Source: a virus. From it: a stretch of DNA of 27,089 bases. How positions within the stretch are numbered: the first letter of the stretch is position 1; each line of letters begins with the position of its first letter. Where the stretch lies: positions 1-27,089 of IMG/VR virus record IMGVR_UViG_3300021335_000072; one strand, 5' to 3'. This document shows, in pieces, positions 2,122-17,245 of the stretch. The position numbers and the translations under genes were made by a program. The notes under the pieces were generated by a model that ran no database searches, was not told the origin of the DNA, and saw only the letters and a list, made by a program, of their open reading frames with translations.

Positions 2122-2123
2122 TA

Positions 2124-2483: not shown

Positions 2484-2758
2484 TGAAAATCACAGCATCA
2501 GAAAGATTTAAACAAGAACTAGATATTTTTAATGAAAAATTAGACACAATATCCGATGAAAAATTAAAAGATCAAGTTTTAGATTTAATTGAAAAATTAA
2601 AAATAATAATGGGAGATATCGACATTGGTCACGATGGAAATCTAAACGGTTTTATGAATCCTCATCTTATCTCGCATAAAAGACACGAAATAATTTCTAT
2701 AAGAGAAAAAATTTATAAATTACTAGGTTTAAAACTTAAAGAGCGACAAACGACTTAA
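2483..2758 (+). CDS. Small helical protein of unknown function (91 aa)
   Basis: 91 residues, highly charged and predicted helical: residues ~5-45 (RFKQELDIFNEKLDTISDEK onward to KLKIIMG) look like an amphipathic helical hairpin. A short loop with Gly, Asn and His follows (DIDIGHDGNLNGFMNPHLISH), then a second helix to the C-terminus. I do not recognise the family. It is coupled to the upstream cupin-like gene by a TAATG overlap. Its last 23 bases overlap the 3' end of the convergent fibre gene, an unusual arrangement that supports both ends being compact rather than one being spurious. It could be a small regulatory or binding protein; no function is claimed. Confidence 0.7.
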   Translation: MKITASERFKQELDIFNEKLDTISDEKLKDQVLDLIEKLKIIMGDIDIGHDGNLNGFMNPHLISHKRHEIISIREKIYKLLGLKLKERQTT

Positions 2759-3656
2759 CTGTAATTGCACCTACCATTGGCGCATGTGAAGTACATTGGT
2801 ATCTATAATTTCCACTTATACTTGAAGGAACTTTCCAATATAGAATTCCTTCGTCTTTATTTTGTGCATTTCCTTCTAATGATACAGTTCCGTCAGGAGC
2901 AACATGAACTAGTCCTGTGTTGTACGGAGTACTTGTAGGATCTTGTATTTGAAAAGGATGGCCTCCAGAACCATTTAAATCAAAAGCAATAGTAGTTCCA
3001 CTTATTGCATAAATTGTAGGATTATTGGTAGTTCCGTACTGGTCAAATCTATATGCGCTATTAAGAGTTTCAGTAACATATAGCATAGTAATAGCTGGCA
3101 AATACATTTGTCCAACTTGCCAATTAGACACTACAAATGTGCCAGCAGTGTTACTATTATATATCACAGACCCGTTTTGTAAACCGCTAATATTAACATC
3201 TGTTAGATCATTTAATGATGTTGCACCGCCTCCTGCTCCTGTATAATTGATAGTCACTGTATCATCTGTTATAGATGTACTGATATCAGTACCTCCTAAA
3301 ATGTTAAGAGTATCTGTAGTTGTATCTGCCTGCGTACTTCCGCTATCACCTACTATAGTATACCATAAATTTTGGTCGCTGCCGCCACCTCCACCTCCAC
3401 CTGTGTAGCTTATAGTTAAAGTGTCGTCTAAGATCGAAGTGGTGATAGAACTACCACCAGTAATTGTTAATGTATCATTAGGATCGTCTGCACTAGTTAC
3501 TCCGCTATCAGATGCAATATTTTTGAATGTATTTGATTGTAAGGCAGAACTTCCTGCTGAAACAATATTCCAAGATACTCCGTCCCATTGCCATGTGGTT
3601 GTTCCGTCTGTAAACGTATCGCCTTCTGATGGGCTATTAGGGTAGTTAAGTGCCAT
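2736..3656 (-). CDS. Tail-fibre-like structural protein with C-terminal cupredoxin domain
   Basis: 306 residues. Residues 1-35 (YPNSPSEGDTF...WQWDGVSWN) are a short phage fibre adaptor motif. Residues ~43-143 hold two ~50-residue repeats (DSGVTSADDPNDTLTI..., DSGSTQADTTTDTLNI...), each ending in a Gly-rich linker. Residues 147-176 carry the SLNDLTDVNISG motif common in marine phage fibres. Residues ~190-306 form a cupredoxin-like domain: GGHPFQI supplies His233, and YRYQCTSHAPMVGAITV supplies Cys288, His291 and Met294. The CX2HX2M spacing is that of amicyanin-type blue copper sites. The gene is last in the minus-strand group after the protease, with its own NATAAATA octamer and an AGAGGAAAT ribosome site. 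Structural role is inferred from repeats and context; copper binding is inferred from ligands. Confidence 0.78.
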   Translation of the reverse strand: MALNYPNSPSEGDTFTDGTTTWQWDGVSWNIVSAGSSALQSNTFKNIASDSGVTSADDPNDTLTITGGSSITTSILDDTLTISYTGGGGGGGSDQNLWYTIVGDSGSTQADTTTDTLNILGGTDISTSITDDTVTINYTGAGGGATSLNDLTDVNISGLQNGSVIYNSNTAGTFVVSNWQVGQMYLPAITMLYVTETLNSAYRFDQYGTTNNPTIYAISGTTIAFDLNGSGGHPFQIQDPTSTPYNTGLVHVAPDGTVSLEGNAQNKDEGILYWKVPSSISGNYRYQCTSHAPMVGAITVKSFVAL

Positions 3657-3675: not shown

Positions 3676-3683
3676 TATTTATG
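3676..3683 (-). promoter_or_regulatory. Candidate T4-type late promoter octamer (CATAAATA)
   Basis: Read on the minus strand this is CATAAATA, one base from the T4 late promoter octamer TATAAATA. Transcription would start about 6 nt downstream (~3670), leaving a short leader with the AGAGGAAAT ribosome site before the ATG at 3656. The octamer overlaps the TAA stop of the protease gene. Confidence 0.5.
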
Positions 3684-5235
3684 ATAAGCCTGTTCCAAAG
3701 GATCCAGCAATTCTATATGATTCATTAGTACCGTATTTGCTATATAAAAGTTTATTCGGACCCCCCAAAAGTGTCGTACTAAATTGAGCATAGTCCGTGC
3801 TTGAACCAGTTTGGTATATTGCACTAGTTGCATCTAAAAGTATTTTTTCTTTTACTTTTGCTGGATTTAAATCAGGTCTGGCGCCTAACATTAGTGCTGC
3901 TACTCCTGCAACTTGCGGTCCTGATTCGCTTGTACCTTGCAGCATTGCAATTTTATAAGTTGCATCTCCAGGATAGTCGATACCTGAATAGCTGTTAGTT
4001 GTGCTTGTACAACTAATGATATTTACTCCGGGTGCCCATATATCTACAGCAGGTCCTCTATTACTAAAGTTTGCCACTCTATCTAAATAATCACCTGCAT
4101 TATCATATATATCTGTATTAATTGCACCTACTTTAATGGCATCGTCGCTGTAAGGACTACTTCCTCTGTGATAAAAATACGTAATGCCACCTATAACTAC
4201 CTCATTATCATAGTCGTCACCTGTAGACAAATCGTGTTTATAATAATCATTACCAGCTGATATTACTACAACTATTCCAGCATCAATCATATCTTCAATT
4301 TCTGCATCAGCAAAAGCATTACGTGCAGGAATAACCCTTAACGTGCCAGGATAAGAACTTACTACTCCGTAATCTACCCATAATGTAGCGTCATCTTGAT
4401 TTGTAAATGTCCACGGAGTTCCTCTATAATTTCCACCAGTAGGATCACCGACGGCTTCGCTAATATATCCCCAACTCATATTTACGACAGTTGGACGACC
4501 ATTAGTTTTTGCAGTATGCCATAGTCTAATACTGTCAAATGCATCGGCTATAGGAATACCAGTGCCGCTGTCTCCAGAGCCCTCAAGACCTGCTAATTTT
4601 TGTGAATATACGTTTGCATTTTTGGCCCAGCCATAAGTCAATCCTGCTACTATTCCGGCACTATGTGTTCCATGTCCGTCTAAGTCTCTGTCGTGATTTG
4701 CGTTTTGTGTTCCAGCTAGTCCGCTTGCAGAATACCAATCAATACTTTGGTATCTTGTATTACCTTCATAATCATTCCATTCTGGATGTAGTGGCTCAAT
4801 GCCGCTATCTTGTATAACAACGTCTACTCCTGTTCCATCTAATGCATAAAGATAATTACTATCTGGTGCTGCACTAGATTGTCCGTAAACATTTGTCAAA
4901 GATATACTTCTACGCAATCCCCAATTTACTAATGTTGAATCTATACTTGACGGTTTCGAAAAGTCTGCGGTTTGCGTAGCATTCAACTTCATTTTTATAT
5001 CATCTCGTTGATCTGGCGGGATTTCTACAGCTTCTATACGATTGTCTTTCCTAAGATTTTCAGCTTCTTCGTCTGTTAGCATCCAATGAGTAATCCTTTT
5101 AGATCCTGGCCGAGGATTTGCTACATCTACACTTCTTTTAGGAACAGCATTATCTCCAGTTTCGGCAGCTAAATCACTGTCTACTTCTGAAATATCTATT
5201 CCTCTCTTAACTATAACTGCGTATTCTTTTTCCAT
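3679..5235 (-). CDS. Subtilisin-family serine protease (peptidase S8) with N-terminal prodomain
   Basis: 518 residues. Residues ~1-75 resemble an I9-type inhibitor prodomain (EYAVIVKRG at the front, LTDEEAENLRKDNRIEAVEI at the end). The S8 catalytic domain spans ~130-475 with an intact triad: Asp143 (VVIQDSGIE), His188 (DGHGTHSAG) and Ser436 (QGTSESGPQVAG), plus the oxyanion Asn329 (SAGND). No signal peptide is seen, so action in the host cytoplasm before lysis, or as part of the virion, is more likely than secretion. It lies between two fibre-like genes, 3 nt after the upstream one, presumably on one late transcript. Possible roles are maturation of adhesin or fibre proteins, degradation of host proteins, or a virion-borne protease acting on the host surface. 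The family call is secure; the role is inference. Confidence 0.93.
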   Translation of the reverse strand: MEKEYAVIVKRGIDISEVDSDLAAETGDNAVPKRSVDVANPRPGSKRITHWMLTDEEAENLRKDNRIEAVEIPPDQRDDIKMKLNATQTADFSKPSSIDSTLVNWGLRRSISLTNVYGQSSAAPDSNYLYALDGTGVDVVIQDSGIEPLHPEWNDYEGNTRYQSIDWYSASGLAGTQNANHDRDLDGHGTHSAGIVAGLTYGWAKNANVYSQKLAGLEGSGDSGTGIPIADAFDSIRLWHTAKTNGRPTVVNMSWGYISEAVGDPTGGNYRGTPWTFTNQDDATLWVDYGVVSSYPGTLRVIPARNAFADAEIEDMIDAGIVVVISAGNDYYKHDLSTGDDYDNEVVIGGITYFYHRGSSPYSDDAIKVGAINTDIYDNAGDYLDRVANFSNRGPAVDIWAPGVNIISCTSTTNSYSGIDYPGDATYKIAMLQGTSESGPQVAGVAALMLGARPDLNPAKVKEKILLDATSAIYQTGSSTDYAQFSTTLLGGPNKLLYSKYGTNESYRIAGSFGTGLS

Positions 5236-5238
5236 TTA

Positions 5239-6492
5239 TTATCCGTATGTGTTAACTGATGCTAAAACTTTCCAACTGTTACCTGTTCTAATAAAACTAA
5301 AACTTACTATGTCTGTTTGATTTGCTGTATAGTTTAATCCGGTTCCTCCCACAGATAATGGCGTAAAGTTTAGGCCGCCGATACTAACTGATGAAGGACC
5401 ATATGCAGTTGCGCCTTGTTCGATAATTAGAACACAGTTAATTGTTCTATCATTTGTTGTAGGAATATTTGTAAAATTGGGGGTAAAATTAGCTGCCGGA
5501 CTTGTATGATAAAAAACAGCTCCTGTGTCAAAATCGTGATCTACAACTCCTGTGGCTCCTGTCTTTGCAGGTGTAACATCAGTTGAATTAGTAATAACAA
5601 GTAATCCTGCTGCACTTGCAGCTATTGCTGCATCTACATAAGTTTTAACCGCGCCTTCTGTAGGAACAGCAGTATTGCTCGAATCGGCAAGTAAGGTATC
5701 TGTAGAAATTTCATTGATAGTTGCTCCAAGAGATAAATTAAAATCTGCTCCTACAGATAGATCTCCACTTGTGACCACACCGTCTGGTGCAGTAAGTGTA
5801 ATTGAACTTGCACTAACAAAATCAGGAGCACCTGCTTCTGTACTAACAAATGCTGTACCTGTTATTACTCCGCTGCTGGTAATAGGACCTGTAGAAATTG
5901 CATTGGTTGTAGTCGCTCCTGCGGTTGTTATTGTATCTAAATCTTGTTGTGCGGCTCCTGCCGCAGCAATAGTTATTGTGTTAGTTGATACATCAGAAGT
6001 AACTGTAATATTTGCACCGGCTTCTACAGTTAATGTTTCTGATCCGCTTGCAACTAATGTACTACTACCAGTAACTTCTATTTCGTTAAACGTATCGACA
6101 CTAGGAGCAGGTACACTTGGTTGGACCCATTGACTGCTATCTGCATCAGATACATAAACAAAGATTTTACCATTAGTACTGTTAAACCATATATTACCAG
6201 CTGCTGGTTCTGTTGGAGGTGTATCGCTGACATCCACGCTTGCGCCTCCGCCGCCTCCGCCGCCGCCTACACCTGCTGCTGTAGCTTTTGCTAAAAAATC
6301 AGTATTTGAAATGTTGTCTAAATCTGCTCTAGCTATTTCAAAACCTGCTTGATCTTTGCCGCTATAAACTCTTAGACTATTTGTTATTTTATTGAAGAAA
6401 ACTTCGCCGCTCGACCCTACATTACGATCTAGAAAATCATCAGGTCTAGGAATAATTCGTATTCTATCTACTACTGGTGCTGGATTGGCCAT
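5239..6492 (-). CDS. Tail-fibre-like virion protein (417 aa)
   Basis: 417 residues, low complexity and beta-rich. The N-terminal ~55 residues (IIPRPDDFLDRNVGSSGEVFFN...LRVYSG) form a short adaptor-like module, followed by a Gly run (residues ~75-84). Next come GNIWFNSTNGKIFVYVSDADSSQW (display-type strand pairs) and a long Thr/Ser/Ala/Val-rich beta region. Near residue 280 the motif AVPTEGAVKTYVDAAI occurs; a related VVPTQRAVKAYIEAQI is at the end of the giant protein in this window, and such motifs are common before trimerising fibre parts. The C-terminal ~120 residues look like a compact beta domain (VVDHDFDTGAVFYHTSP...NSWKVLASVNTYG). First gene of a late minus-strand group with an AAAGGAA ribosome site. 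Fibre role inferred from composition and neighbours. Confidence 0.75.
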   Translation of the reverse strand: MANPAPVVDRIRIIPRPDDFLDRNVGSSGEVFFNKITNSLRVYSGKDQAGFEIARADLDNISNTDFLAKATAAGVGGGGGGGGASVDVSDTPPTEPAAGNIWFNSTNGKIFVYVSDADSSQWVQPSVPAPSVDTFNEIEVTGSSTLVASGSETLTVEAGANITVTSDVSTNTITIAAAGAAQQDLDTITTAGATTTNAISTGPITSSGVITGTAFVSTEAGAPDFVSASSITLTAPDGVVTSGDLSVGADFNLSLGATINEISTDTLLADSSNTAVPTEGAVKTYVDAAIAASAAGLLVITNSTDVTPAKTGATGVVDHDFDTGAVFYHTSPAANFTPNFTNIPTTNDRTINCVLIIEQGATAYGPSSVSIGGLNFTPLSVGGTGLNYTANQTDIVSFSFIRTGNSWKVLASVNTYG

Positions 6493-6574: not shown

Positions 6575-6877
6575 ATGGCTAAACCAAGGTTTGATGAACA
6601 CTACATAAAAGTATGTATGGATGAAGCTCCAATTGACCAAGATCATTATGAGTTTAACATAAATGGTAAACCGATTGTAATTAGAGGAAAAACTATTAAA
6701 TACCATTTATATAAATTAGAACATTTTGAAGAGACAAAGGTAGCCGAAGCATTTTTTTGGCTGAGATGGCACGGGCGACCACTAGGCGATTATTGTATGC
6801 AATTAGCAGAATCATTAGCTACAAATGGAAGCATTGTTCCTGCAATTCACAATATTCCATTGGAGTTCAAAAAATGA
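6575..6877 (+). CDS. Unknown protein (100 aa) behind a late-type promoter
   Basis: 100 residues, soluble, with no recognised family. Residues 1-45 look like strand-rich sequence (HYIKVCMDEAP, HYEFNINGKPIVIRGK). Residues ~45-90 look helical and aromatic (HLYKLEHFEETKVAEAFFWL, RWHGRPLGDYCMQLAESLA). Two cysteines and several histidines (HY, YHLY, EHF, WHG, IHN) are present, but no classical metal motif is seen. The ATG has a strong GGAGG site 7 nt upstream and a TATAAATA octamer before that. The stop overlaps the next start (ATGA at 6874-6877), so the pair is co-translated. The promoter type suggests late expression, possibly a small structural or assembly protein; this is inference. Confidence 0.72.
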   Translation: MAKPRFDEHYIKVCMDEAPIDQDHYEFNINGKPIVIRGKTIKYHLYKLEHFEETKVAEAFFWLRWHGRPLGDYCMQLAESLATNGSIVPAIHNIPLEFKK

Positions 6878-7287
6878 TTTACGAGCTTGTAGGAAATTCT
6901 TATATAAAATACGAAATCAAAGACAGAAAAGATGACAGTACAAAATACATTGCAAGGAAAAAACAAAAAGATTTAGTAAAACTTAAAAAATTATTATTTG
7001 CATCTCTATCTATGCAAGACACAATTTTATTATATAATAGTAATGGAAGTTATGAAACATTTGTTGCTAATTTTAATTTTAAAGAATATCCACATATTCC
7101 GCTAAAATTTTCTTTCTATAATAAAAAGGAAAACTCTTACCTAAATATAACTAAATTTCCGATTCACGATGCAGTCTATAATAAAGATTTAGCGTTAGAC
7201 TTATCTTGTATTGAGGAAGTAATTATACCAACTGACAGTTTAGAAAATCTTGAACAACTAATTTCTCAGCAAAAGTTTATAGTTTAA
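6874..7287 (+). CDS. Unknown protein (137 aa), coupled to the upstream small gene
   Basis: 137 residues starting MIYELVGNSYIKYEIKDRK. I chose ATG 6874 rather than the in-frame ATG at 6757, because it overlaps the stop of the preceding gene (ATGA) and has TGGAG at 6861-6865; the 39 extra upstream codons lie entirely inside the other gene and read as a shadow. The protein is Lys- and Ile-rich with a basic stretch at residues ~20-40 (KYIARKKQKDLVKLKKL), then strand-like aromatic sequence (YETFVANFNFKEYPHIPLKF), and ends LEQLISQQKFIV. No family is recognised. Its end overlaps the convergent gene of the enzyme cassette by 11 nt. Confidence 0.7.
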   Translation: MIYELVGNSYIKYEIKDRKDDSTKYIARKKQKDLVKLKKLLFASLSMQDTILLYNSNGSYETFVANFNFKEYPHIPLKFSFYNKKENSYLNITKFPIHDAVYNKDLALDLSCIEEVIIPTDSLENLEQLISQQKFIV

Positions 7288-8011
7288 AATGTTTTTGCCA
7301 AACTTCTTTTAACTTATTCCTTTTTGGAAACCAAGACATTGAATTAAAGTATTTCTTTTTCTTCTCCCATAACAAATCATTTTCATTAGCATCTCTGACT
7401 TCTAGTTCTAACTTTCTGTCTGTTACCGGAATAACATGGCACAAAGGAGTACCGGCTTTTATTAGGTGTCTGCCATTTTTTACGTTCCAACGAACTTGAA
7501 CATTTATTTCGTTACTAATTCCTGGATCTAAAATTCCAATTGTAGATTCAAATTCAAAACTATCAGGATAAGCTATAGGTATCATTAGTATTTTAACATC
7601 TTTGGGAGCAATTATTCTCCAAGGAGTATTAAACTTAATAACACCTTCTAAGCTATAATGAGGAGTCGACATTGTCTTCACAATGTCGTGCTCATGGCTT
7701 CCTAAAGGACCTTTAATACCATCAATTTCTAGTCCTTCGTCACTAGGAATAGCCCATTTATATGAATGGCCGTCACCGTTTGTTTCGATTAAACATTCAT
7801 GCCACATAGGTATTATGTAACCATAATTGTACAAATCAAAAATACCTGGACATTGCATAATATGATTAAAAGGACCGTCTTGTTGCTTTCTTTTTTTATA
7901 ATCTTGTCTAGCGTTTTTAATCCATTGGTGATCTATATGTTTTGCTTCGAATACAGGAACTGTATCGGTTACTCCGGGAATTAAACTAACAAATGTAATT
8001 TTATTTCTCAT
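7277..8011 (-). CDS. Unknown protein with beta-clip-like segment, last gene of the halogenase cassette
   Basis: 244 residues, last gene of the five-gene cassette, coupled to the upstream oxygenase gene by a 4-nt ATGA overlap. Residues 48-90 carry an aromatic, His-containing block (FNHIMQCPGIFDLYNYG, then IPMWHECLIE). Residues 158-196 (IGILDPGISNEINVQVRW...LIKAGTPLCHVIPV) resemble the core of the dUTPase/dCTP deaminase beta-clip fold, with Asp162 where dUTPases have the motif 3 Asp. The other dUTPase motifs are not evident, so I do not call an enzyme. The block order also recalls DUF6065-type proteins from memory; this is unverified. A substrate-binding or accessory role for the modification cassette is inferred from position only. 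Confidence 0.72.
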   Translation of the reverse strand: MRNKITFVSLIPGVTDTVPVFEAKHIDHQWIKNARQDYKKRKQQDGPFNHIMQCPGIFDLYNYGYIIPMWHECLIETNGDGHSYKWAIPSDEGLEIDGIKGPLGSHEHDIVKTMSTPHYSLEGVIKFNTPWRIIAPKDVKILMIPIAYPDSFEFESTIGILDPGISNEINVQVRWNVKNGRHLIKAGTPLCHVIPVTDRKLELEVRDANENDLLWEKKKKYFNSMSWFPKRNKLKEVWQKHFKL

Positions 8012-8586
8012 ACGTTATGCTCTAAAGTAATATCAAATGCAATGTTAATCCTAGTCGATTCGGAATAGTTTGGCTCTACTTCATGCGGCACCCACGCCGG
8101 CCAAAGGATAAAATCACCGTCATTAGGATTGATATAAAAGTCTCTAGTAAATGGTCCTGTGCTTATAATATTCGATAATGTCATAGCAGGATTAATAAAA
8201 CGTAGTTCTCCTGTATTTTGTGCCTGAGCATAATAGACTGCCGAGAAATGTGCTGTGGCATGATTATGCATAACATTTCTACTTTGCGGATCGTTAACGT
8301 TTATCCAATATCGTAAATTTGACTTTGTAGTTGCAGACTGGCCAAAAACTACATCTTCTTTTTTATAATAAGAAACTGCTTCAACAAGTAAATCATCTAA
8401 GCAATTAAAAATCCATTCGTGATGCATTAGATTTGTCTCTCCTCGCCAGCAACCTGGATTTGTATATCCTAAGTTAGGAGTCGATTGTTTATATTGATAA
8501 ATTTCTTTTATAAGCTCATTGCGCTGGTGTTCGGATCCTACAGAATGCCTAACAAATAAATTTGAATTAAACAGAGTTTGCATCAT
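8008..8586 (-). CDS. 2OG-Fe(II) oxygenase-like protein (TIGR02466-type)
   Basis: 192 residues with the features of the short putative 2-oxoglutarate/Fe(II) oxygenases of phages and marine bacteria. These are an HNHATAHFSAVYYA block (His107, His109, His113), a GELRFINP strand, then GDFILWPAWVPHEVEPN (His168) and ESTRINIAFDI with Arg179 in the place of the 2OG-binding Arg. Such enzymes use 2OG and O2 to hydroxylate or otherwise oxidise a substrate. The start MMQ at 8586 has AAGGA upstream; the second ATG at 8583 is equally possible. The gene overlaps the halogenase 3' end by 20 nt and the next gene by 4 nt. It is the shorter of two related oxygenases flanking the halogenase. Confidence 0.82.
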   Translation of the reverse strand: MMQTLFNSNLFVRHSVGSEHQRNELIKEIYQYKQSTPNLGYTNPGCWRGETNLMHHEWIFNCLDDLLVEAVSYYKKEDVVFGQSATTKSNLRYWINVNDPQSRNVMHNHATAHFSAVYYAQAQNTGELRFINPAMTLSNIISTGPFTRDFYINPNDGDFILWPAWVPHEVEPNYSESTRINIAFDITLEHNV

Positions 8587-10090
8587 TTATTTCCTTTATA
8601 TAATCATAATGGTTAGGGAATGTTGTTTTGATTAAATTAACTCTATGATTTTGATTTTCAATAAAAATTTTAGAATACAATTCAAGTTCTTGGCTAATGT
8701 CTTGCTTTTTATAACTTCCTGCGGCATGAATGACACTAAACCACTGGGGTGTACTAAACATGCTGAAAGGAGTTAATCTAAACCGTTTACTAGGAGTAGG
8801 ATAATATTGATTTATAATTTGTCTAATATTTTGTGGTAAATCATATATAGATCCCTTACGTATATCTTTCCAAAAATTTGTGTCTTCTTTATTACTAAAA
8901 TAATAATGTGCCCATACAAATGCAAAAATTTCATCAATCATAATATTAAATTGACTATTAATAATTTCTTTTGCTCTGTTGTTTAAAACATTACCTTCTA
9001 AATTAAGTACGTGTGCTAAGTTTTCTACTACAGTAGTAGTGAAAGTAATTCCGGTTGCTTCTAATGGTTCAATAAATCCTGCACTTAGACCTACAGCAAC
9101 CACATTGTTACGTGCTACATTTTCATGCTTTCCGCACTTCATTTTTAAATGGTTTGCAGGTGCATTGTATTCTTTTAATGTATCTCTTAATTCTTGTTCT
9201 GCTTGTTCATGATTTATGTATTTAGAACTATACACATATCCATTACCAATTCTTGTATAAACAGGAATAGTCCAACGCCAGCCAGCATTCATTGCTGTAG
9301 CTTTTGTATATGGATGGCATTCTGCATTTGGATCTGTATATTGTGTAGGCATTGCCACTGCACTATCGCAAGGCAAAAAATCTTGATAACTTATAAACTC
9401 TTCGCCTAGTTCTTTTTCTAGTAGAACACTACTAAATCCGGTACAATCAATGTACAAATCTGCTTCATATTTGTTTTTATCATCATATAGTGCAGTTATA
9501 CCGTTTTCGTTTTTATCTATTCTAGTAATAGCAGTGTCTACGTGAATTACTCCGTTGCACACGGTTTTTAATGTATCAATAATTTTTGCGGCATTAAAAT
9601 GAAATGCACCGTAATTTTCTTCACCGATCGCAAAGTTCTGATCTAAACCTTTAAACTTAGGTGATACGTTTTTCTTTGCTAATTGGTATGCAGGAAGCCA
9701 ATCAAAAAACTCTTTTTTATCTTTACTAATAAAATAATCGTTTGTATAAAATTCATCTGCTATAATAGAATTTTCTTGGCGATCATTATCGACAAAGTAA
9801 GGAGTATCATTCCATCCTGTCAATTCTACTCCATATTTAAAAACTGCTTCGCTAGAAGGTATCCAGTCATTTGGTCTCAAACCGCACCTATACAAAAATC
9901 CTGCAGAGTAAGGTTGTGTTCCTTCTCCAACACCAATAGGTCCTTTTGCAAGATCTTCAATTAACATTATTTCTGGTTTTAATCTTAGATTGTTATTAAG
10001 GTAAGCGGCAGTAAGCCAGCCACTTGTACCTCCTCCTAAAATTATAATTTTTTTAATTTTCGTTAACATAAAAAAGAGACTCTCTATCAT
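8567..10090 (-). CDS. Flavin-dependent (tryptophan) halogenase
   Basis: 507 residues with all landmark motifs of PrnA-type halogenases. The FAD-binding GGGTSG is at residues 19-24, VGEGT at 54-58, Lys85 (AVFKYGVELTGW) corresponds to the catalytic Lys79 of PrnA, and the halogenase signature W271-R-W273-T-I-P is intact. Glu344 (EPLEATG) corresponds to PrnA Glu346. These enzymes use FADH2, O2 and halide to make hypohalous acid that attacks electron-rich carbons, and need a flavin reductase, which is not encoded here. Halogenases occur in cyanophages; one, VirX1, is known to prefer iodide. The start at 10090 has ATAGGT upstream; ATG 10069 would remove 7 residues and fits the usual short N-terminus before the FAD motif. 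It overlaps the upstream oxygenase gene by 38 nt. The substrate is unknown. Confidence 0.93.
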   Translation of the reverse strand: MIESLFFMLTKIKKIIILGGGTSGWLTAAYLNNNLRLKPEIMLIEDLAKGPIGVGEGTQPYSAGFLYRCGLRPNDWIPSSEAVFKYGVELTGWNDTPYFVDNDRQENSIIADEFYTNDYFISKDKKEFFDWLPAYQLAKKNVSPKFKGLDQNFAIGEENYGAFHFNAAKIIDTLKTVCNGVIHVDTAITRIDKNENGITALYDDKNKYEADLYIDCTGFSSVLLEKELGEEFISYQDFLPCDSAVAMPTQYTDPNAECHPYTKATAMNAGWRWTIPVYTRIGNGYVYSSKYINHEQAEQELRDTLKEYNAPANHLKMKCGKHENVARNNVVAVGLSAGFIEPLEATGITFTTTVVENLAHVLNLEGNVLNNRAKEIINSQFNIMIDEIFAFVWAHYYFSNKEDTNFWKDIRKGSIYDLPQNIRQIINQYYPTPSKRFRLTPFSMFSTPQWFSVIHAAGSYKKQDISQELELYSKIFIENQNHRVNLIKTTFPNHYDYIKEINDANSV

Positions 10091-10697
10091 ATAAACCTAT
10101 ATTCATTGCAATCGATACTCTAATTTTTTCGCTTTGCTGTGGATTAACTGCATGACGTAAATATGAAGGAAATATAATTAAATCTCCTTCTTCAATGAAT
10201 GTAGGTACTGTTGCCAATTCTTTATAGTATGGCGGTAATTTATCTTTATTTTCTGTAGGAGCAGTAGCTCTTAATATTTGTTCGTGGGGGTTATAAAATT
10301 CTACTGCTTTATGCTCGTCTTTATCAAATTCTACATAATGAATAGCAGAAAACATAATAGGCATTGGTCCTGAGATATGATTGTGTTCTTCTTGCCAGCC
10401 GCCCTTTCCAGTAATATTATACCAAAAGTATGGTCGAATCATCCAGGATACACTTGTATCAAACCCAAGATTATTGAAAAGATTGTTAAAGTCTTGTCTG
10501 TAATAGTCTGTAAAAAGTTTTTGATCTAATGTAGGTGCTCCGTCAAAATAATCAGAAAATACTCTACATACTGGCGAGTTGTATCCTTGTTTTTCATACA
10601 CTGGCTTAATTGTGTCATCTATATGTTTTCTTATTTCATTATGCATAGATGCTTTTGTAACAAATATTGGAGTAGGAAATAAATCAAATCTCTTCAT
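10053..10697 (-). CDS. 2OG-Fe(II) oxygenase-like protein (TIGR02466-type), upstream copy
   Basis: 214 residues. The N-terminus (RFDLFPTPIFVTKA) is typical of the TIGR02466 family of putative 2OG-Fe(II) oxygenases. Candidate iron ligands are His105/His107 in EEHNHISG and His182 in IFPSYLRHAV; Arg193 in KIRVSIAMNI fits the 2OG-binding position. IPTFIEEGDLIIFP-like and FSAIHYVEF strands fit the double-stranded beta helix. The HNH pattern and spacing match the second oxygenase of the cassette (8008-8586), so the two are divergent paralogues. The start is coupled to the upstream methyltransferase fusion by a 4-nt ATGA overlap, and the 3' end overlaps the halogenase by 38 nt. Hydroxylation of the same substrate as the halogenase or of an intermediate is inferred. 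Confidence 0.84.
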   Translation of the reverse strand: MKRFDLFPTPIFVTKASMHNEIRKHIDDTIKPVYEKQGYNSPVCRVFSDYFDGAPTLDQKLFTDYYRQDFNNLFNNLGFDTSVSWMIRPYFWYNITGKGGWQEEHNHISGPMPIMFSAIHYVEFDKDEHKAVEFYNPHEQILRATAPTENKDKLPPYYKELATVPTFIEEGDLIIFPSYLRHAVNPQQSEKIRVSIAMNIGLYDRESLFYVNEN

Positions 10698-12370
10698 TTT
10701 TTAATCACCATAATATATAAGCCATTCCACCAACCGTCTGGATCTTCTTCGTCATTTAATATAAGTTTAGAATAAACAATTTCTGAGCCCATTTTAGCAA
10801 ACATATCATTAGCCGCATATACAGTTCCTTCCCAATTTGCATCATCTAAAACAACAATAGTTTCATTTGCTAATATAGGATACACATACTCTAATGCTTT
10901 TACGGTTTCGTCGTACCCGTGTTCTCCGTCATAAAAAAACATCTTTATAGGCTCTTCAATATCTGATAATTCTACATCATATAAGTCTTTGTTTATAACT
11001 TTCACAGAAGAATTGCCAACAACTCCTTCTATATTTTCTAAGAATGTTTCTTTTTTGTTTGGGGGTAACTTGATTTTTTCATTCTGTGGCTGAATATCGT
11101 TTTCCCATTTGTCAACACAGTATGCACTAATCAAATTATTTTCTAACACAGATGCTAACGTTGCTCCCTGATACGAACCTACTTCTAAGTAAGTATCTAC
11201 ACCTTGTGCTAGGTTATTAAGCAAAGTTTGAACACGTGGTGATGTTAATCCAGGGATGGAATTTGACGTTGTCACTATGCCGCTCTTTAACACACTATCT
11301 GCTACATGCTTTGCAAGTTCGCTATGCTTTTGTGGACTTTTTGCCTTGTAAATTTTATCACAATATTGACACTCCCAACAATCAAACTTGCAGTTACGTA
11401 TTTTGCTTCGCCAAACATCGATAGGTTTGTCTTTTAAATTTGTTTCCTTAATATAACTGTCAAACGTATCAAATAAAATTTCTTCATTGTAGTGCCATCT
11501 TTTAACAATATTCATTGTTTCTGACAATCTTTGCACACTTTCTCGGCCATGCATTTTAAACACATCAATACCTAAATCATTTAAAAATTCTTCCCAATCT
11601 TCTTTCCAAGGTGGTAAATCGGCTGTTTTTAAACTAACGCTAGGATCATCGACATCCCATTTAGGACAACTTACTCTACTTATAGGATCGTTAAAATATT
11701 GAGGATTATTACTTTGTCTAGTATTGTTAAAATGAAAGTGTTCTACCATCATTGGACAATTACCTAAACAGCCTTCGTTTGCTAATAGACTGTATTCTAT
11801 ATCTTTCCCTAAATTCTTTTTAATCCATAGTTTTGCATCTTTCAAGCGTAGAAGTGTATCTTTATCACGCATTAAATCTCTATCAAGATTAATATAATCA
11901 AAACCATACTTTGCGAGATTAACAATCTCGCTTGCAGTTCTAACGTCATTTAGGATTGTATTTTTTACCTTTAATTCTGGAAACGCTTTCTTTATTTGTC
12001 CAGTTGCCATCCAATGTGTATGAGGAATAGTTGCTGTGCGAACTCCTACATCATATAGTATTTTAAAGTTTTTAATAAATGTATCTAGGTTTTTTTGGTC
12101 TGGCCTAACTTGAATATTATTAAAAGTTGCGCTAACAGGAATACCAACTGTATCCTGGATATTAAGAGCAGCTCTAGCAAGGTATACGTGATCTTCTTCG
12201 CCACCTGCAAATACATCTCCCATTGCGTCAGATTCAAAAGGCGGAATACGAGAGGTAAAATATATATCGTAAATATAATCTTTATACAGTTTGCAAAAGT
12301 CTAAAAAATCTTGATATTGATCTGGACTTAGTTTTGGATTGAGTGGAATACTAAAAACTTTTTTTGACAT
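10694..12370 (-). CDS. U32-like TIM-barrel protein fused to class I SAM methyltransferase
   Basis: 558 residues, first gene of the cassette. Residues ~1-340 resemble the peptidase U32 family of TIM barrels (relatives of UbiU/UbiV and RlhA/TrhP, which bind iron-sulfur clusters and hydroxylate ubiquinone precursors or RNA). Visible are ANEGCLGNCPMM (Cys201, Cys205), SCPKW (Cys235) and a dense cysteine group CKFDCWECQYC (Cys327, 331, 334, 337), enough for one or two clusters. Residues ~370-558 are a class I SAM methyltransferase of the Methyltransf_24 type: motif I EVGSYQG (396-402), acidic Asp420 after strand 2, YDGEHGYDETVKAL (480-492) and VVLDDANW. Near-consensus sigma-70 promoter and AGGAAG ribosome site precede it. 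The fusion is unusual; chemistry and substrate are unknown. Confidence 0.8.
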   Translation of the reverse strand: MSKKVFSIPLNPKLSPDQYQDFLDFCKLYKDYIYDIYFTSRIPPFESDAMGDVFAGGEEDHVYLARAALNIQDTVGIPVSATFNNIQVRPDQKNLDTFIKNFKILYDVGVRTATIPHTHWMATGQIKKAFPELKVKNTILNDVRTASEIVNLAKYGFDYINLDRDLMRDKDTLLRLKDAKLWIKKNLGKDIEYSLLANEGCLGNCPMMVEHFHFNNTRQSNNPQYFNDPISRVSCPKWDVDDPSVSLKTADLPPWKEDWEEFLNDLGIDVFKMHGRESVQRLSETMNIVKRWHYNEEILFDTFDSYIKETNLKDKPIDVWRSKIRNCKFDCWECQYCDKIYKAKSPQKHSELAKHVADSVLKSGIVTTSNSIPGLTSPRVQTLLNNLAQGVDTYLEVGSYQGATLASVLENNLISAYCVDKWENDIQPQNEKIKLPPNKKETFLENIEGVVGNSSVKVINKDLYDVELSDIEEPIKMFFYDGEHGYDETVKALEYVYPILANETIVVLDDANWEGTVYAANDMFAKMGSEIVYSKLILNDEEDPDGWWNGLYIMVIKK

Positions 12371-12390: not shown

Positions 12391-12419
12391 AGTATATAAT
12401 CTTTTACTAAGTATGTCAA
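12391..12419 (-). promoter_or_regulatory. Near-consensus sigma-70 promoter of the halogenase cassette
   Basis: On the minus strand: TTGACA at 12419-12414, exactly 17 nt spacer, TATACT at 12396-12391. It is one base from the sigma-70 consensus in the -10 box and perfect in the -35 box. Transcription would start near 12384, giving a ~14-nt leader with AGGAAG (12380-12375) before the ATG at 12370. The -35 box overlaps the TGA stop of the upstream gene. A partial late-type octamer TATAAATT lies at 12388-12381. Confidence 0.7.
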
Positions 12420-12955
12420 TCTTCTTCTTGAGTTTTTAGTGTTTTTATGGTAAGAACAGGAGTAAGATCTTCAACCTTGATTCCTGGCGTTAAGGTATCA
12501 AAATATGTGCCTAAATATCTGTTTAAAGTATCGATACTGTTAGCTTCCATAATTATTTTTTTTAACGCTCCTATTTCTTTAATACTAGAAGTGTGATTTT
12601 CTACGTAATTGCAAAGGATTTTTTTCATCAGACTTGTACAATTTTTTTTATCATTAGCTGTTAGATGATACACTTGTTTATCACCTTCTTCTTCTTCGAG
12701 CAAACTATATCCTACAAATTCTACAGGATCTTTGACACCTTTGGGAGGTTTTTTAATAGTAATTTCATTATTATATGCACCAGTAAAAAAAGAAGACTTT
12801 GCTTCTTCTTTCGTTATGACTACATGATTAAGCCATTCTAAGTATTTTCCATCTGGCACTTCAGCAATAGTATAGTGCCAATACGCATCTAGGATTTTAT
12901 AATCTCTATCTACTCTAGGGTCATTCCCCGGTAGCGTCTCGTACGCTATGTACAT
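12416..12955 (-). CDS. Unknown protein (179 aa) downstream of the coiled-coil gene
   Basis: 179 residues, soluble, no recognised family. Residues 1-75 are mixed and aromatic (DYKILDAYWHYTIAEVPDGKYLEWLNHVVITKEEAK). A Lys/Pro turn (TIKKPPKGVKDP) and an acidic patch (LLEEEEGD) follow, then helices (KKNCTSLMKKILCNYVENH, IKEIGALKKIIMEANSIDTLNRYLGTYF). The ATG at 12955 has GAAGGAAG upstream and overlaps the preceding gene by 35 nt, so both are probably on one transcript. The gene ends inside the -35 box of the sigma-70 promoter. A tail or assembly function is suggested only by neighbours. Confidence 0.7.
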   Translation of the reverse strand: MYIAYETLPGNDPRVDRDYKILDAYWHYTIAEVPDGKYLEWLNHVVITKEEAKSSFFTGAYNNEITIKKPPKGVKDPVEFVGYSLLEEEEGDKQVYHLTANDKKNCTSLMKKILCNYVENHTSSIKEIGALKKIIMEANSIDTLNRYLGTYFDTLTPGIKVEDLTPVLTIKTLKTQEED

Positions 12956-13754
12956 TCAAACTTCCTTCTTGGTCATCTTCTACAGATTTTGCTAATGTTA
13001 AACTATCAGTTCCAACACTTCCATTAAGTTTTAACATATCCTCGGCACGCTGTTGCAATGTTAATTGGATATTTTGGTTTTGTACAGCATAATTGTAGCA
13101 AAGATTTAATACTTCTGTTTGCTGATCTGCAGGCAACATACAAATAGCATCCATATTACCGCCATTAATGCGACCATAAAAAATCATGTCCATAGCTGCT
13201 TGCTTAGCCATTCTATTTGTCCAATACTCTGCTTCGTATTCATCTTCTTCTTCTGTATCTAAAACTTCAAGTAAACTACGACCGTCTGCTGTTTTACCTT
13301 GTTCGCTTTCAAGCAATTCATTAACAAGGTCTACCAAATTTTGTCTTTCAAGATAATAATCATTCATTCTACGTTTAGTAATACCTAGTTCTCTTTCTAA
13401 CTTTCTAATTTCAAGTGCAAACTTTTTTGAAATTAGAGGATCATCTGTACTTTCACTATTTCGTCTTTCAATTTCAATATCTAATTCGAGCTTGTCCATT
13501 TCATATTCCATGCGTTCAAGTTGCTCTTCTCTTGATTTAATTTCAAGAAGCCACTGACGCATTTTAGCAAAAGGAGTAATTTGGGCATCGCCAACAAAGT
13601 GGCGTAATTTAAATCTCGGGTTGGTCCATTCTTTATTAATTGCTACATCTACAATTTGTTTATCTTTTTCGTCAAGAAATTTTTGATCAGTAATCGATGA
13701 TTGATTCCAAGCATCTGTATGATATTGTTTTAATCGATCTGGAAGGTTCCACAT
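12921..13754 (-). CDS. Coiled-coil protein of unknown function (277 aa)
   Basis: 277 residues. Residues ~65-150 are heptad-rich and strongly helical (REEQLERMEYEMDKLELDIEI, then RKLERELGITKRRMNDYYLER), broken near residue 100 by STDDP, which suggests an antiparallel or two-part coiled coil. Residues 160-180 are very acidic (TEEEDEYEAEYW). Residues ~180-215 hold MAKQAAMDMIFYGRINGGNMDAI, also helical. No enzyme motif is seen. The ATG has AAGGAG upstream, and an ATTAAATA octamer lies before that. It may be a tail or baseplate assembly factor as elsewhere in T4-like tail regions, but I do not recognise it as a specific T4 gene product. Confidence 0.75.
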   Translation of the reverse strand: MWNLPDRLKQYHTDAWNQSSITDQKFLDEKDKQIVDVAINKEWTNPRFKLRHFVGDAQITPFAKMRQWLLEIKSREEQLERMEYEMDKLELDIEIERRNSESTDDPLISKKFALEIRKLERELGITKRRMNDYYLERQNLVDLVNELLESEQGKTADGRSLLEVLDTEEEDEYEAEYWTNRMAKQAAMDMIFYGRINGGNMDAICMLPADQQTEVLNLCYNYAVQNQNIQLTLQQRAEDMLKLNGSVGTDSLTLAKSVEDDQEGSLNVHSVRDATGE

Positions 13755-13818: not shown

Positions 13819-15264
13819 TTAATCACGCCAGCCGCAAGCAGCAGAACTCATACCAGCATGACCTTTTGGTTCCATACTAGAACCGCCTTGGAACCCACTT
13901 TCATTAGCATAGTTCCAACGCCAACTGATATTGTTTTGCAAGCCATTGTACATGCCTATCATGTACTGGTGATGCTGACCCATTGTGAAGTTTTCTTCGC
14001 CTGAATTGCCACTAGGCTTAGTGCGTGTACCGCTTGTAGAGTCGGTGTACATGTTTGTCCTACGCAAGTTGTATCCACCGTTGTATCCACCTTCGTTGCC
14101 TGCCCACTGGTATTCCCATTTAGCATTAACTGTTTTTTGCTGGTGACTATTTGAAGGACTTGTACCGCCTCTTGCTGCAGAACTTTTTGTAGCAAAGGTA
14201 AATGTTCTTGCACTTGCACCTTGGTATCCTGCCCAGAATTGAGCTCTATATTCTCCGCTCATTGCCCAGCTATCGCCGGTTCCGGGATTTTCTATTTCAC
14301 TTGCAGCAGTTTCTGTTAGCAAATTCCATTCTTGGATTCTTCCGCCGTTCAATGTATAACCGTAATCAGTTCCGTCCCACATAGAACCTTGTCGTACGTC
14401 ACTGTAGATAAGATCCCATTTGTTTTGATGTGAAATATTATTTTCAGTACGCATACTAAAGCCAGTTACGTAGTTACTAGACACAACGTGGCCTCCGCCT
14501 GCACCCATAATAAACATATTATCTTTGTTGTTTATACTAGACTGATAGTTAAATCCTCTAACCTTACTATCACCGAGGTTAGTTGTTGAATCTGTCGACA
14601 TATTTGTTCTATTAACATTAGTCCAAACAGCAGCACTTTTGTATCCGCCGGCAGTATAGTTTGTCGTAATAATCTGTCTAGCTGCAAATGGAACTGTCAT
14701 AGACTTCCAATTACCTCTTTCTGTGTCGTGAGGTGCAGCAAAAAATTCTAAACCATCTCTACCTGCATTATAGCGTATTTCTCCATCACTTCCCATAGAA
14801 AAGAAATACATTGCAGAATAGTTATCAAGATTGTGTGTTCCTGCTGATAGCGTTCTTTGCCAAATATCCCAATCACCTGTGCTATAACTATCGATTAGAT
14901 TCTCTCCGTAAGAATCCACAATTTGTGTCCATCCGGATGTGCTTACCGCGGACCAACCAGGTTGACGCAGATAATATACAGTAGCTTCTTGATCTAGCAC
15001 TACAGTAATATTAGACGAGTCGTTAATGTTTAATGTGCATGGAAGTCCTAGTAAAAATTCTGGTAAGTTTTCGTATCTCCCCCAGTTAGTAGCTGCCGGA
15101 TCGATATATAATTGCAACCCGTTACGTGCAACACCTAATCCTCTAGCACTGTTAGAAAGAGTAACTCCGCCTAATGCATATATATTATTTGCTCCATTGT
15201 CAGTAAGAACAGGAAGATGCAAATAACCTGTATCATTAATAACTGTATTTTTTAACGTAGCCAT
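13819..15264 (-). CDS. Tail-fibre-like protein (481 aa), longer member of a tandem pair
   Basis: 481 residues. The last ~300 residues align along their length with the protein encoded just upstream (15268-16332). Shared blocks are FxARxIITTxYxAGGYK, WxNVNRTxxxxDxTxNLGD, GAGGGHxxSSNY, HQQKxVxxK, GGYNLRRTNM, MGQxHQYMxGxYNGLQNNI, ESGFQGGS and MEPKGHAG, ending in WRD. Within each copy the NVNRT...DTT and RRTNM...DTTSGT blocks suggest internal repeats. The N-terminal half differs: residues ~45-180 hold LamG-start-like GLQLYIDP and a beta-rich region (VVLDQEATVYYLRQPGW). It is separated from the upstream copy by 3 nt, with GGAGAG as ribosome site. This looks like a receptor-binding or decoration fibre; the C-terminal tip differs from the other copy (MSSAACGWRD against SSSGHCWWRD). 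Confidence 0.78.
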   Translation of the reverse strand: MATLKNTVINDTGYLHLPVLTDNGANNIYALGGVTLSNSARGLGVARNGLQLYIDPAATNWGRYENLPEFLLGLPCTLNINDSSNITVVLDQEATVYYLRQPGWSAVSTSGWTQIVDSYGENLIDSYSTGDWDIWQRTLSAGTHNLDNYSAMYFFSMGSDGEIRYNAGRDGLEFFAAPHDTERGNWKSMTVPFAARQIITTNYTAGGYKSAAVWTNVNRTNMSTDSTTNLGDSKVRGFNYQSSINNKDNMFIMGAGGGHVVSSNYVTGFSMRTENNISHQNKWDLIYSDVRQGSMWDGTDYGYTLNGGRIQEWNLLTETAASEIENPGTGDSWAMSGEYRAQFWAGYQGASARTFTFATKSSAARGGTSPSNSHQQKTVNAKWEYQWAGNEGGYNGGYNLRRTNMYTDSTSGTRTKPSGNSGEENFTMGQHHQYMIGMYNGLQNNISWRWNYANESGFQGGSSMEPKGHAGMSSAACGWRD

Positions 15265-15267
15265 TCT

Positions 15268-16332
15268 TTAATCTCTCCACCAGCAATGTCCTGAACTGGA
15301 CCCTGCATGACCTTTTGGCTCCATTGTAGAGCCGCCCTGGAATCCACTTTCTGTACCGTAGTTAAATCTCCAACTAATATTGTTTTGTAGTCCATTATAT
15401 TGTCCTAACATATATTGGTGATCTTGACCCATCGTATAATTTTCTTCTCCGCAATTTCCTACTGGCTTACTTACTGTTCCTGAAGTTGTATCACTGGTCA
15501 TATTAGTTCTACGTAAGTTATATCCGCCGCTATACGAACCTTCATTGCCGCACCATAAGCTGTTTCCAGTTAATTGTTTACTTTGTACAGACTTTTGTTG
15601 GTGATTATTACTTACGCCTGTGGTATATCCTCTTCCAAAGTTTTGTCTAGTTGCAAAGTTAAATCTTTGTTCGCTAGTGTTACCTGTCCACAATATGCCA
15701 AATGTTTCATGACTTCCTGCCCATGTATTACCAGTCGTCCAGGCAGTTCCTACAGTACCATTCATTACCTCAGCAGTCAAATTAAATTCTTCCCAGTTGC
15801 CGCCGGCGCCGCCGCCACTTACCCAAGCATAGTAATGTTCTTGGAAAATAGCACCAAATCTAAATCTGTTACCATCATCAAAATCCCATTTGTTTAGATG
15901 TGTATATCCTATTTCTGAACGCATGTTAAAACCGGAACTATAGTTAGAACTAATTGCATGTCCGCCACCTGCACCAAAAATCCATCCAATGTCTTTTGAA
16001 CAAGCACCTGGATTGTAGTTAAATGCACGAATACGTCCGTCACCTAAGTTGATTGTTGTATCGCTGTTAGCAAATGTTCTATTAACATTAGACCAAGCAA
16101 CACTATTCTTGTATCCGCCTGCCATGTAGTGGGTAGTAATAATAGTCCGTGCTTTAAAAGGAATTGCAAGAGACTGCCAAGTTCCGTTTGATTTATAAAA
16201 TTCTAAATTACCTTCGTCTGTGTTAAATCTAACAGACCCGAGTTGGGGATTTGTACGTTGGGAACTATTTCCCGTAGGAAGCCTTAAGTATCCTGTATCA
16301 TTGATTGTTAACTGTTTCCTGAACTCTGCCAT
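15268..16332 (-). CDS. Tail-fibre-like protein (354 aa), shorter member of a tandem pair
   Basis: 354 residues. The N-terminal ~55 residues (NDTGYLRLPTGN...GSVRFNTDEGNLEFY...GTWQSL) form an adaptor shared with the LamG protein upstream (LPNGNNGAR...LRFNTDLQYVEHYYKGQW) and partly with the downstream copy. Residues ~60-354 are the conserved fibre domain of the tandem pair, rich in Gly, Asn, Trp and Tyr with little charge, as in beta-structured phage adhesins. The C-terminus ends SSSGHCWWRD. The gene has its own GATAAATA octamer and an AGGAAG ribosome site, so it can be transcribed apart from the upstream fibre genes. No enzymatic motif is seen. Receptor binding is inferred from location and paralogy. 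Confidence 0.78.
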   Translation of the reverse strand: MAEFRKQLTINDTGYLRLPTGNSSQRTNPQLGSVRFNTDEGNLEFYKSNGTWQSLAIPFKARTIITTHYMAGGYKNSVAWSNVNRTFANSDTTINLGDGRIRAFNYNPGACSKDIGWIFGAGGGHAISSNYSSGFNMRSEIGYTHLNKWDFDDGNRFRFGAIFQEHYYAWVSGGGAGGNWEEFNLTAEVMNGTVGTAWTTGNTWAGSHETFGILWTGNTSEQRFNFATRQNFGRGYTTGVSNNHQQKSVQSKQLTGNSLWCGNEGSYSGGYNLRRTNMTSDTTSGTVSKPVGNCGEENYTMGQDHQYMLGQYNGLQNNISWRFNYGTESGFQGGSTMEPKGHAGSSSGHCWWRD

Positions 16333-16354: not shown

Positions 16355-16362
16355 TATTTATC
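16355..16362 (-). promoter_or_regulatory. Candidate late promoter octamer (GATAAATA) inside the fibre gene cluster
   Basis: On the minus strand GATAAATA lies 23 nt before the ATG at 16332. A start ~6 nt downstream (~16349) would leave the AGGAAG ribosome site in the leader. The octamer overlaps the TGA stop of the LamG gene (TGATAAATA), the same stop-in-promoter layout as at 3676. Confidence 0.5.
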
Positions 16363-17245
16363 AGACACCAAAACGTCCTCTTGTATCCGAAAACAATGTA
16401 GATAATTCTGTATCACTTAGTGCTCTGTCATGTAGTGAAAAATAACCTATACGCTGACCAGGGCCTCTATATTGCCAACTTCCTTGATCGTCTACTTGTC
16501 CAATAAACAATGGATCAGTATTTCCATTTCTAGCATCAATTCCTACTGAGTTTGCGTTTGCGCTTCCGTTACGATATGCTCTCATTGTACCATTGCGAGA
16601 TGTTACAGTGATCATTTGCCATGTATTTTGAAAAGTTATAGGATCGGTTGTATCAACAGTTTGCTGACTTTGGCCATCACCGTTCCAAGTTATATGAAAT
16701 CTGCTACTTGAGCCACTATAGTACCAACACGCCGGACGTCTACGTCCTTGTGCGTTTCCCTTACAGAAAAATTGTGTCCAAGTACCATTATCGTCAAATG
16801 TTGGATATACCCAAACATTATAGGTCCAGTTTCTATGACTATAATTCAAACTAGGAGAAGCTAACACAGAAATATTGTTATTATTATTTAAAACTTGGTT
16901 AAAATAAGATTGCTGGCCATTACTTACCCAAGTTGTACCATATAATGTTCCGTGGTTGTTTTGTCCTGAAAGATCGTAAACTGTTACGCCACTTCCTGGA
17001 TAACTCGCAGGATCACTCGGATCGAATAATAAAACTAATCCTTCGTCAATATACCCGCCGCCATAATTTGCTCTTGTATCGCGCCACTGTCCTTTGTAGT
17101 AATGTTCAACATATTGTAGATCGGTGTTAAAGCGTAAATTAGCTGTAGTGTCTTGTCTAGCTCCATTATTTCCGTTTGGCAAAACAATGCCTTTACCTAT
17201 ATCCGATCCAGATAAATTCACATTTGTATTTTTAATATTTGCCAC
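16361..17245 (-). CDS. LamG/concanavalin-like lectin-domain fibre protein, GTG start
   Basis: 294 residues. Residues 1-60 are the adaptor shared with neighbouring fibre genes (GIVLPNGNNGAR, LRFNTD, HYYKGQW). Residues ~66-290 are a LamG-type jelly roll: EGLVLLFDPSDPASYPGSG opens the domain, YDLSGQNNHGTLYG and NWTYNVWVYP are core strands, WQMITVTSRNGTMRAYRNG is the typical middle, and GYFSLHDRALSDTELSTLF the typical end. Such domains often bind carbohydrate, so a role in adhesion to host surface glycans is likely. The start is GTG at 17245, supported by AGGAG 7 nt upstream and by the MANIKN N-terminus, which matches MATLKN of a neighbour. It ends inside the octamer of the next gene. Confidence 0.82.
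   Translation of the reverse strand: MANIKNTNVNLSGSDIGKGIVLPNGNNGARQDTTANLRFNTDLQYVEHYYKGQWRDTRANYGGGYIDEGLVLLFDPSDPASYPGSGVTVYDLSGQNNHGTLYGTTWVSNGQQSYFNQVLNNNNNISVLASPSLNYSHRNWTYNVWVYPTFDDNGTWTQFFCKGNAQGRRRPACWYYSGSSSRFHITWNGDGQSQQTVDTTDPITFQNTWQMITVTSRNGTMRAYRNGSANANSVGIDARNGNTDPLFIGQVDDQGSWQYRGPGQRIGYFSLHDRALSDTELSTLFSDTRGRFGV

Follow-up and report, generated by a model that had tools for sequence, protein, structure and literature searches.

A conserved, modular enzyme operon linked to tail-fibre genes in T4-like phages, with the fibres as its candidate substrate

The viral contig analyzed here (IMG/VR record IMGVR_UViG_3300021335_000072; 27 kb, 27,089 nucleotides (nt), 37% G+C; hereafter, the window) comes from a T4-like phage of marine or lake origin with a contractile tail and spans its tail region, and five adjacent genes within it (hereafter, the cassette) form a real, conserved, modular, and fibre-linked enzyme operon. 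In the direction of transcription, they encode a U32-like barrel fused to a cation-dependent O-methyltransferase (U32MT), a 2-oxoglutarate (2OG)-Fe(II) oxygenase (OXY1), a predicted PrnA-type flavin-dependent halogenase (HAL), a second 2OG-Fe(II) oxygenase (OXY2), and a protein with a predicted dUTPase (beta-clip) fold (P7084). We tentatively read the cassette as an operon for the maturation or modification of tail fibres (adhesins), with a confidence that falls slightly short of even. Fibre proteins are favoured as the target because of their linkage to the cassette, the co-occurrence of U32MT with one fibre family (phrog_1417), and the C-terminal tails that these fibres have in common; judged from sequence, the phage's own adhesins are the best supported among the candidate targets.

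The five open reading frames (ORFs) lie on the minus strand at 10694-12370 (U32MT), 10053-10697 (OXY1), 8567-10090 (HAL), 8008-8586 (OXY2), and 7277-8011 (P7084), all in one direction with overlapping ends, as the initial annotation had described them. The overlaps are 4, 38, 20, and 4 nt in transcription order. Three of these stand; the second probably shrinks from 38 to 17 nt, because in the alignment the halogenases of relatives begin at the second Met of MIESLFFMLTKIKK, which would place the true HAL start seven codons later, at about 10069.

To profile the cassette in other phages, viral contigs were searched gene by gene. The loci were found by similarity to the window genes, so the sample represents this lineage, not all phages. 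The scan with U32MT gave 80 loci; those with the single window HAL or P7084 gave none or two relatives, and alignments were needed as queries. The usual gene string is a giant fibre, small fibre genes, two phrog_1417 paralogs, g12921, g12416, U32MT, (an oxygenase), HAL, an oxygenase, P7084, a fibre, an S8 protease, and a baseplate connector. When each distinct U32MT was counted once and at least 4 kb of downstream sequence was required, 93 loci remained. HAL was present in 58 of them, 51 of which also carry a 2OG oxygenase and P7084; a further 20 have P7084 without HAL (19 of these with an oxygenase), and 15 have U32MT alone. The exact window order occurred 13 times, including four cases with two P7084 copies. 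Of the 64 loci with room for them, 62 had fibre homologs no more than 6 kb upstream, and g12921 was upstream of U32MT in 77/86. Gene ends mostly overlap, with median gaps of -4 to -27 nt for most cassette gene pairs and +1 for the oxygenase-HAL pair. This arrangement is far beyond chance, as dozens of diverged contigs share it. The genes neither co-occurred rarely nor stood among unrelated neighbours across the viral loci, the two outcomes that the initial annotation had named as fatal to its proposal, and its claim that the genes are made together agrees with their conserved order and linkage with adhesin genes. Its fixed five-gene pathway gives way to a modular system: since loci persist without HAL or with U32MT alone, HAL and OXY1 are optional additions to an older framework, in which the pairing of methyltransferase and oxygenase is ancient.

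The same modularity could be taken as the mark of a gene island whose members have unrelated roles and travel together through a recombination hotspot in the fibre region, as HAL, OXY1, and second P7084 copies were gained and lost within the block. We consider this quite unlikely. The gene ends overlap, the gene order persists at 50-70% protein identity across many diverged contigs, and a 2OG oxygenase lies within 3 kb of the halogenase in 38 of 59 distant viral halogenase loci that lack U32MT; 2OG-FeII_Oxy_3 proteins made up 30 of the 80 genes sampled around these distant halogenases.

Two variants within the block were also recorded. P7084 is duplicated in one sublineage (L013, L020, L023-L027, L032, L037-L042, L045-L051, and L070), where the additional copy has diverged and has no C-terminal helix region. 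A second, distant halogenase lies downstream of the cassette in L014, L031, L036, L041, L044, and L047, often on the opposite strand and with further 2OG oxygenases.

Isolate phages carry the same association. Among 50,697 phage records, the total matches were 123 for U32MT, 123 for g12921, and 119 for the phrog_1417 fibre, with an almost equal breakdown by organism and host; for comparison, the T4-like neck gene was found in at least 439 Synechococcus/'Cyanophage' records. In P-SSM4, P-RSM1, and S-H25, a fibre gene and two small genes are followed by U32MT and then by an overlapping 2OG-oxygenase-like gene annotated as 'endonuclease V', 'tail fiber protein', or 'hypothetical'. The U32MT proteins of S-H25, P-SSM4, S-RIM2, and P-RSM1 (phrog_1458) share the two-domain architecture and about 45% identity with that of the window, and the same fibre, g12921, and oxygenase-like neighbours; they differ in being annotated as hypothetical and in having no halogenase or P7084 beside them in the regions read. 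In S-RIM14, U32MT is retained despite a distance of about 6 kb to g12921 (34887-35504 against 41395 and beyond, positions drawn from different isolates of nearly equal length), and 2OG oxygenases adjoin g12921. S-RIM44, Syn9, P-TIM40, S-CREM1, and Sf-FP1 resemble the window in a different way, with one or two halogenases, then a P7084 homolog, and about 4-9 2OG oxygenases directly behind tandem Gly-rich fibre paralogs; these fibres belong to a family other than phrog_1417, and no U32MT was seen there. In four cyanophage records (L003, L004, L005, and L250), 2OG-oxygenase-like genes labelled DNA endonuclease V, ferrochelatase, or minor coat protein, and P7084 labelled triphosphate nucleotidohydrolase, are probably misannotated.

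The cassette is probably a separate transcription unit within the fibre block, because in halogenase-bearing relatives promoter and terminator enrichment sits upstream of U32MT alone among the cassette genes. In the window, a sigma70-like promoter (TTGACA-17-TATACT; 12391-12419, minus strand) ends 20 nt before the U32MT ATG. Matches to at least 11 of the 12 sigma70 positions were found upstream of U32MT in 8 of 56 halogenase-bearing loci (0.4 expected from shuffles) and in 4 of 26 halogenase-less relatives (0 expected), and hairpin-plus-T terminators were likewise enriched there (14/56 and 4/26, respectively). In loci with HAL, the remaining cassette genes showed no promoter enrichment upstream. 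A sigma70 scan across the whole region gave chance-level results, rising above chance only upstream of U32MT across relatives, and the T4 late-promoter motif TATAAATA was not enriched in the window.

U32MT matches phrog_1458 (E-value 3e-175), and its AlphaFold2 model has a predicted local distance difference test (pLDDT) score of 85. The barrel predicted for residues 1-282 aligns with the U32 protein Mk0906 (5d88; Z 16.0, root-mean-square deviation (rmsd) 3.3 Å over 226 residues), in line with the initial annotation of a U32-like barrel. Membership of the U32 family by sequence was rejected, as no Pfam or NCBIfam U32 profile matched and the residues E199-x-C201-x3-C205 are spaced differently from the E162/C170/C177 (E-x7-C-x6-C) that are essential in TrhP (PMC6599085). 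For these two reasons, the predicted domain is called 'U32-like' only, by fold. Seven Cys residues (201, 205, 235, 327, 331, 334, and 337) are invariant in 32 relatives, which is consistent with one or more Fe-S clusters. The C-terminal domain (365-558) matches Methyltransf_24 (E-value 1e-10; 42.4 bits, cut-off 26.3), has a nearly invariant DDxN metal-type motif near 509-512, and in the predicted model resembles the cation-dependent O-methyltransferases TomG and COMT (Z about 17), with MycF and SpnH also among the fold matches. A genome-wide scan for U32MT found only two phage-like contigs, L091 and L092, binned in a Dehalococcoidia and a Euryarchaeota metagenome-assembled genome, respectively; both are probably contamination.

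The best PDB sequence match of the methyltransferase domain is TrmR (E-value 0.005; fold match Z 16.2), and TrhP, a U32 protein, acts before TrmR to make ho5U34 and then mo5U34, with a related TrhO-TrmR fusion known in eukaryotes (PMC6599085). U32MT could thus be an RNA enzyme, a fused hydroxylase and O-methyltransferase for a 5-methoxyuridine-like modification of transfer RNA (tRNA), with the other cassette genes as unrelated passengers. Unlike the TrhP and TrmR pair, the two predicted domains of U32MT lie in one chain. We regard the RNA reading as improbable: the key U32 residues of U32MT are spaced otherwise, it is tied strictly to fibre genes, and the window contains no tRNA.

HAL (PF04820, phrog_2928) is, by sequence, a predicted member of the flavin-dependent tryptophan-halogenase family (Trp_halogenase E-value 8e-95; 318.7 bits, cut-off 21). 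The motifs GGGTSGW (GGGxxGW) and WRWTIP (WxWxIP) are present, and the catalytic K85 and E344, reported as intact in the initial annotation, are invariant in 26 aligned viral halogenases. VirX1 of cyanophage Syn10 (PDB 6QGM) belongs to the same family, with the same catalytic Lys and Glu, WxWxIP motif, phage origin, and adjacent P7084-type gene, and differs in that the window HAL is about 30% identical to it over the common fold. The annotated absence of a flavin reductase holds in the contigs of ten relatives (63-245 kb), where none was found, and therefore reduced flavin adenine dinucleotide (FADH2) must come from the host. The two oxygenases (PF13759, phrog_81) match 2OG-FeII_Oxy_5 at 7e-19 and 1.2e-16; OXY1, optional in relatives, has the HxH...H...R ligands, and the HxH (which the family shows in place of HxD), distal H, and R are at least 98% conserved.

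P7084 (phrog_7084) has a predicted model (pLDDT 89) that aligns with dUTPase (Z 10.4, rmsd 3.6 Å over 132 residues), and the beta-clip-like segment noted earlier in this protein can thus be assigned to a dUTPase fold. A working dUTPase was rejected, as the PRSGLA and GFGSTG signature motifs are absent from the window protein (alignment, by eye); the dUTPase profile does not match it even at an E-value of 1. DUF6065 (PF19541) was matched by 2 of 33 P7084 homologs (best E-value 0.005) and not by the window protein, and a P7084 profile found no match among PDB sequences.

Gene rows with halogenases and 2OG oxygenases are already known in cyanophages, where they are read as metabolic or DNA-repair genes: the halogenase has been explained as antibiotic protection (PMC2984593), the oxygenases by DNA repair or nitrogen metabolism (PMC3037559, PMC9146016), and the S-SSM6a cluster by a halogenated amino-acid/sugar metabolite or capsule chemistry (PMC7824862). 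The cassette may accordingly be an auxiliary metabolic pathway that turns a host metabolite into a halogenated, methylated small molecule (a signal, an antibiotic, or a protectant), its position among the fibres being incidental. VirX1 takes many small aromatic substrates (PMC8407142), and the separate sigma70-like promoter would also fit such a pathway. We think this unlikely, though it deserves serious weight, as the unit lacks genes for scaffold building, carriers, transport, or resistance, U32MT in isolates goes together with g12921 and a single fibre family, and the fibres lie upstream in nearly every locus with room for them. The S-SSM6a/S-SSM7 cluster is similar in that a methyltransferase and 2OG oxygenases accompany the phage halogenase, and differs in its carbamoyltransferases, HAD phosphatases, and HemK-like methylase, which are absent from the five cassette genes (PMC7824862). 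The capsule decoration suggested for S-SSM6a leads to another possibility, that sugars on the fibres or the host surface polysaccharide are decorated so as to change adsorption or superinfection. Sugar enzymes occur among the Methyltransf_24 O-methyltransferases, as the fold matches to MycF and SpnH illustrate; however, no glycosyltransferase or sugar-nucleotide enzyme is encoded in the unit and PrnA-type halogenases target aromatic rings, leaving glycan decoration with a low probability.

We return to the fibres. Each phage has two or three diverged phrog_1417 paralogs with the common C-terminal tail KGxxGxSSGxCxW[RK]x, usually ending in Trp-Arg/Lys-X. In the window, the two paralogs are encoded on the minus strand at 13819-15264 (C-terminus ...KGHAGMSSAACGWRD) and 15268-16332 (C-terminus ...KGHAGSSSGHCWWRD), with the codons of the conserved 18-residue tails at 13822-13875 and 15271-15324, respectively, and both are candidate substrates. 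A Trp within the last five residues was found in 74 of 83 fibres from loci with HAL, an oxygenase, and P7084, in 37/37 from loci with an oxygenase and P7084 only, and in just 2 of 14 from loci with none of the three, in which the proteins usually extend beyond the motif. The association of this Trp end with the oxygenases and P7084 is confounded by phylogeny, and we treat it as a lead from sequence, not proof. The C-terminal Trp was rejected as a halogenase-specific mark, being present where the halogenase is absent. Aromatic residues at alignment columns 128, 317, and 427 of these fibres were frequent only in halogenase-bearing loci and are candidate halogenation sites; they are likewise confounded by phylogeny and were not used.

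From the gene content and order, promoter-like sequence, predicted folds, catalytic residues, linkage, and co-occurrence, we infer the reactions, the substrate, the modified residue, and the role of P7084 as follows. The cassette's own promoter would allow the enzymes to be made as a single unit. The U32-like barrel, the 2OG-Fe(II) oxygenases, or both may add hydroxyl groups, one of which the fused O-methyltransferase would methylate, and HAL, where present, may halogenate an activated aromatic ring using host FADH2. P7084 could serve as a partner for binding or presentation. The most likely substrate would be the tandem phrog_1417 fibres encoded directly upstream, diverse paralogs with one C-terminal tail, and together the enzymes could furnish a single aromatic target with OH, OMe, and halogen. 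Proteins with dUTPase folds are usually trimers, as are tail fibres. VirX1 is also a trimer (PMC8407142), and a threefold complex of the halogenase, the dUTPase-fold protein, and the fibre would be an attractive picture.

Several points weigh against fibre modification. T4-like phages also place accessory genes near their fibres, and linkage therefore does not prove it. Early expression is suggested by the sigma70-like promoter, whereas fibres are usually late. The near-equal record counts in isolates are totals, with the accession lists compared in part. The 2OG-HAL pair of HTVC008M sits between terminase genes, an exception to the fibre linkage. Each trait shows just 3-5 changes on the U32MT tree. 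Joint changes of the Trp end with OXY or P7084 occur in one or two independent pairs and opposite changes almost never, numbers that put significance out of reach. Loci without HAL retain the C-terminal Trp, thus it is no halogenase-specific mark, and L049 retains it without an oxygenase or P7084.

Tail genes flank the cassette on both sides. Upstream of U32MT on the minus strand are g12416 (12416-12955), a small protein usually directly upstream of U32MT in halogenase-bearing loci, and g12921 (phrog_1409; 12921-13754), a helical, coiled-coil-like protein that is possibly a fibre-assembly factor. Fibre genes then run from 13819 to the right end of the window, with three more virion/fibre genes (16361-17245, 17259-18140, and 18151-18471) and a giant tail-fibre protein of 2853 amino acids (aa; 18485-27046) further upstream than the two phrog_1417 paralogs, all on the minus strand and syntenic in relatives. 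Downstream of P7084, two small plus-strand genes encode proteins of about 137 aa (about 6874-7287), with no homolog in the fetched loci, and 100 aa (6575-6877), with a 34% identical homolog in L009 in equal place and orientation. A substrate-peptide gene was sought in the 785-nt gap after P7084, and the minus-strand ORF of 66 aa there lacks homologs. Another tail-fibre protein (5239-6492), a subtilase (Peptidase_S8; 3679-5235), and a baseplate-connector-like protein (2736-3656) follow on the minus strand. The subtilase keeps its position among the tail genes in most relatives and could process virion proteins, and the C-terminus of the baseplate-connector-like protein resembles a cupredoxin/plastocyanin-type domain. 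The tail-sheath gene (231-1676) adjoins genes for a Nudix hydrolase and a cysteine-dioxygenase-like cupin (1690-2483, plus strand), both kept beside it in relatives (Nudix identity up to 78%). No psbA or psbD was found in relatives.

In the open-access literature, no paper was found that proposes halogenation or 2OG modification of phage fibres. No natural substrate is known for viral halogenases or for the 2OG oxygenases that marine T4-like phages carry in multiple copies. Their occurrence in one conserved operon with a fibre-tracking U32-like/O-methyltransferase fusion provides a concrete candidate. A broader and more doubtful possibility is that phages tailor their own adhesins, with a dedicated operon that would hydroxylate, O-methylate, and halogenate aromatic residues on trimeric fibre tips, and that this is the native role of VirX1-like halogenases and of many marine T4-like 2OG oxygenases. 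If true, phages could extend the chemistry of their host-recognition proteins past the 20 amino acids.

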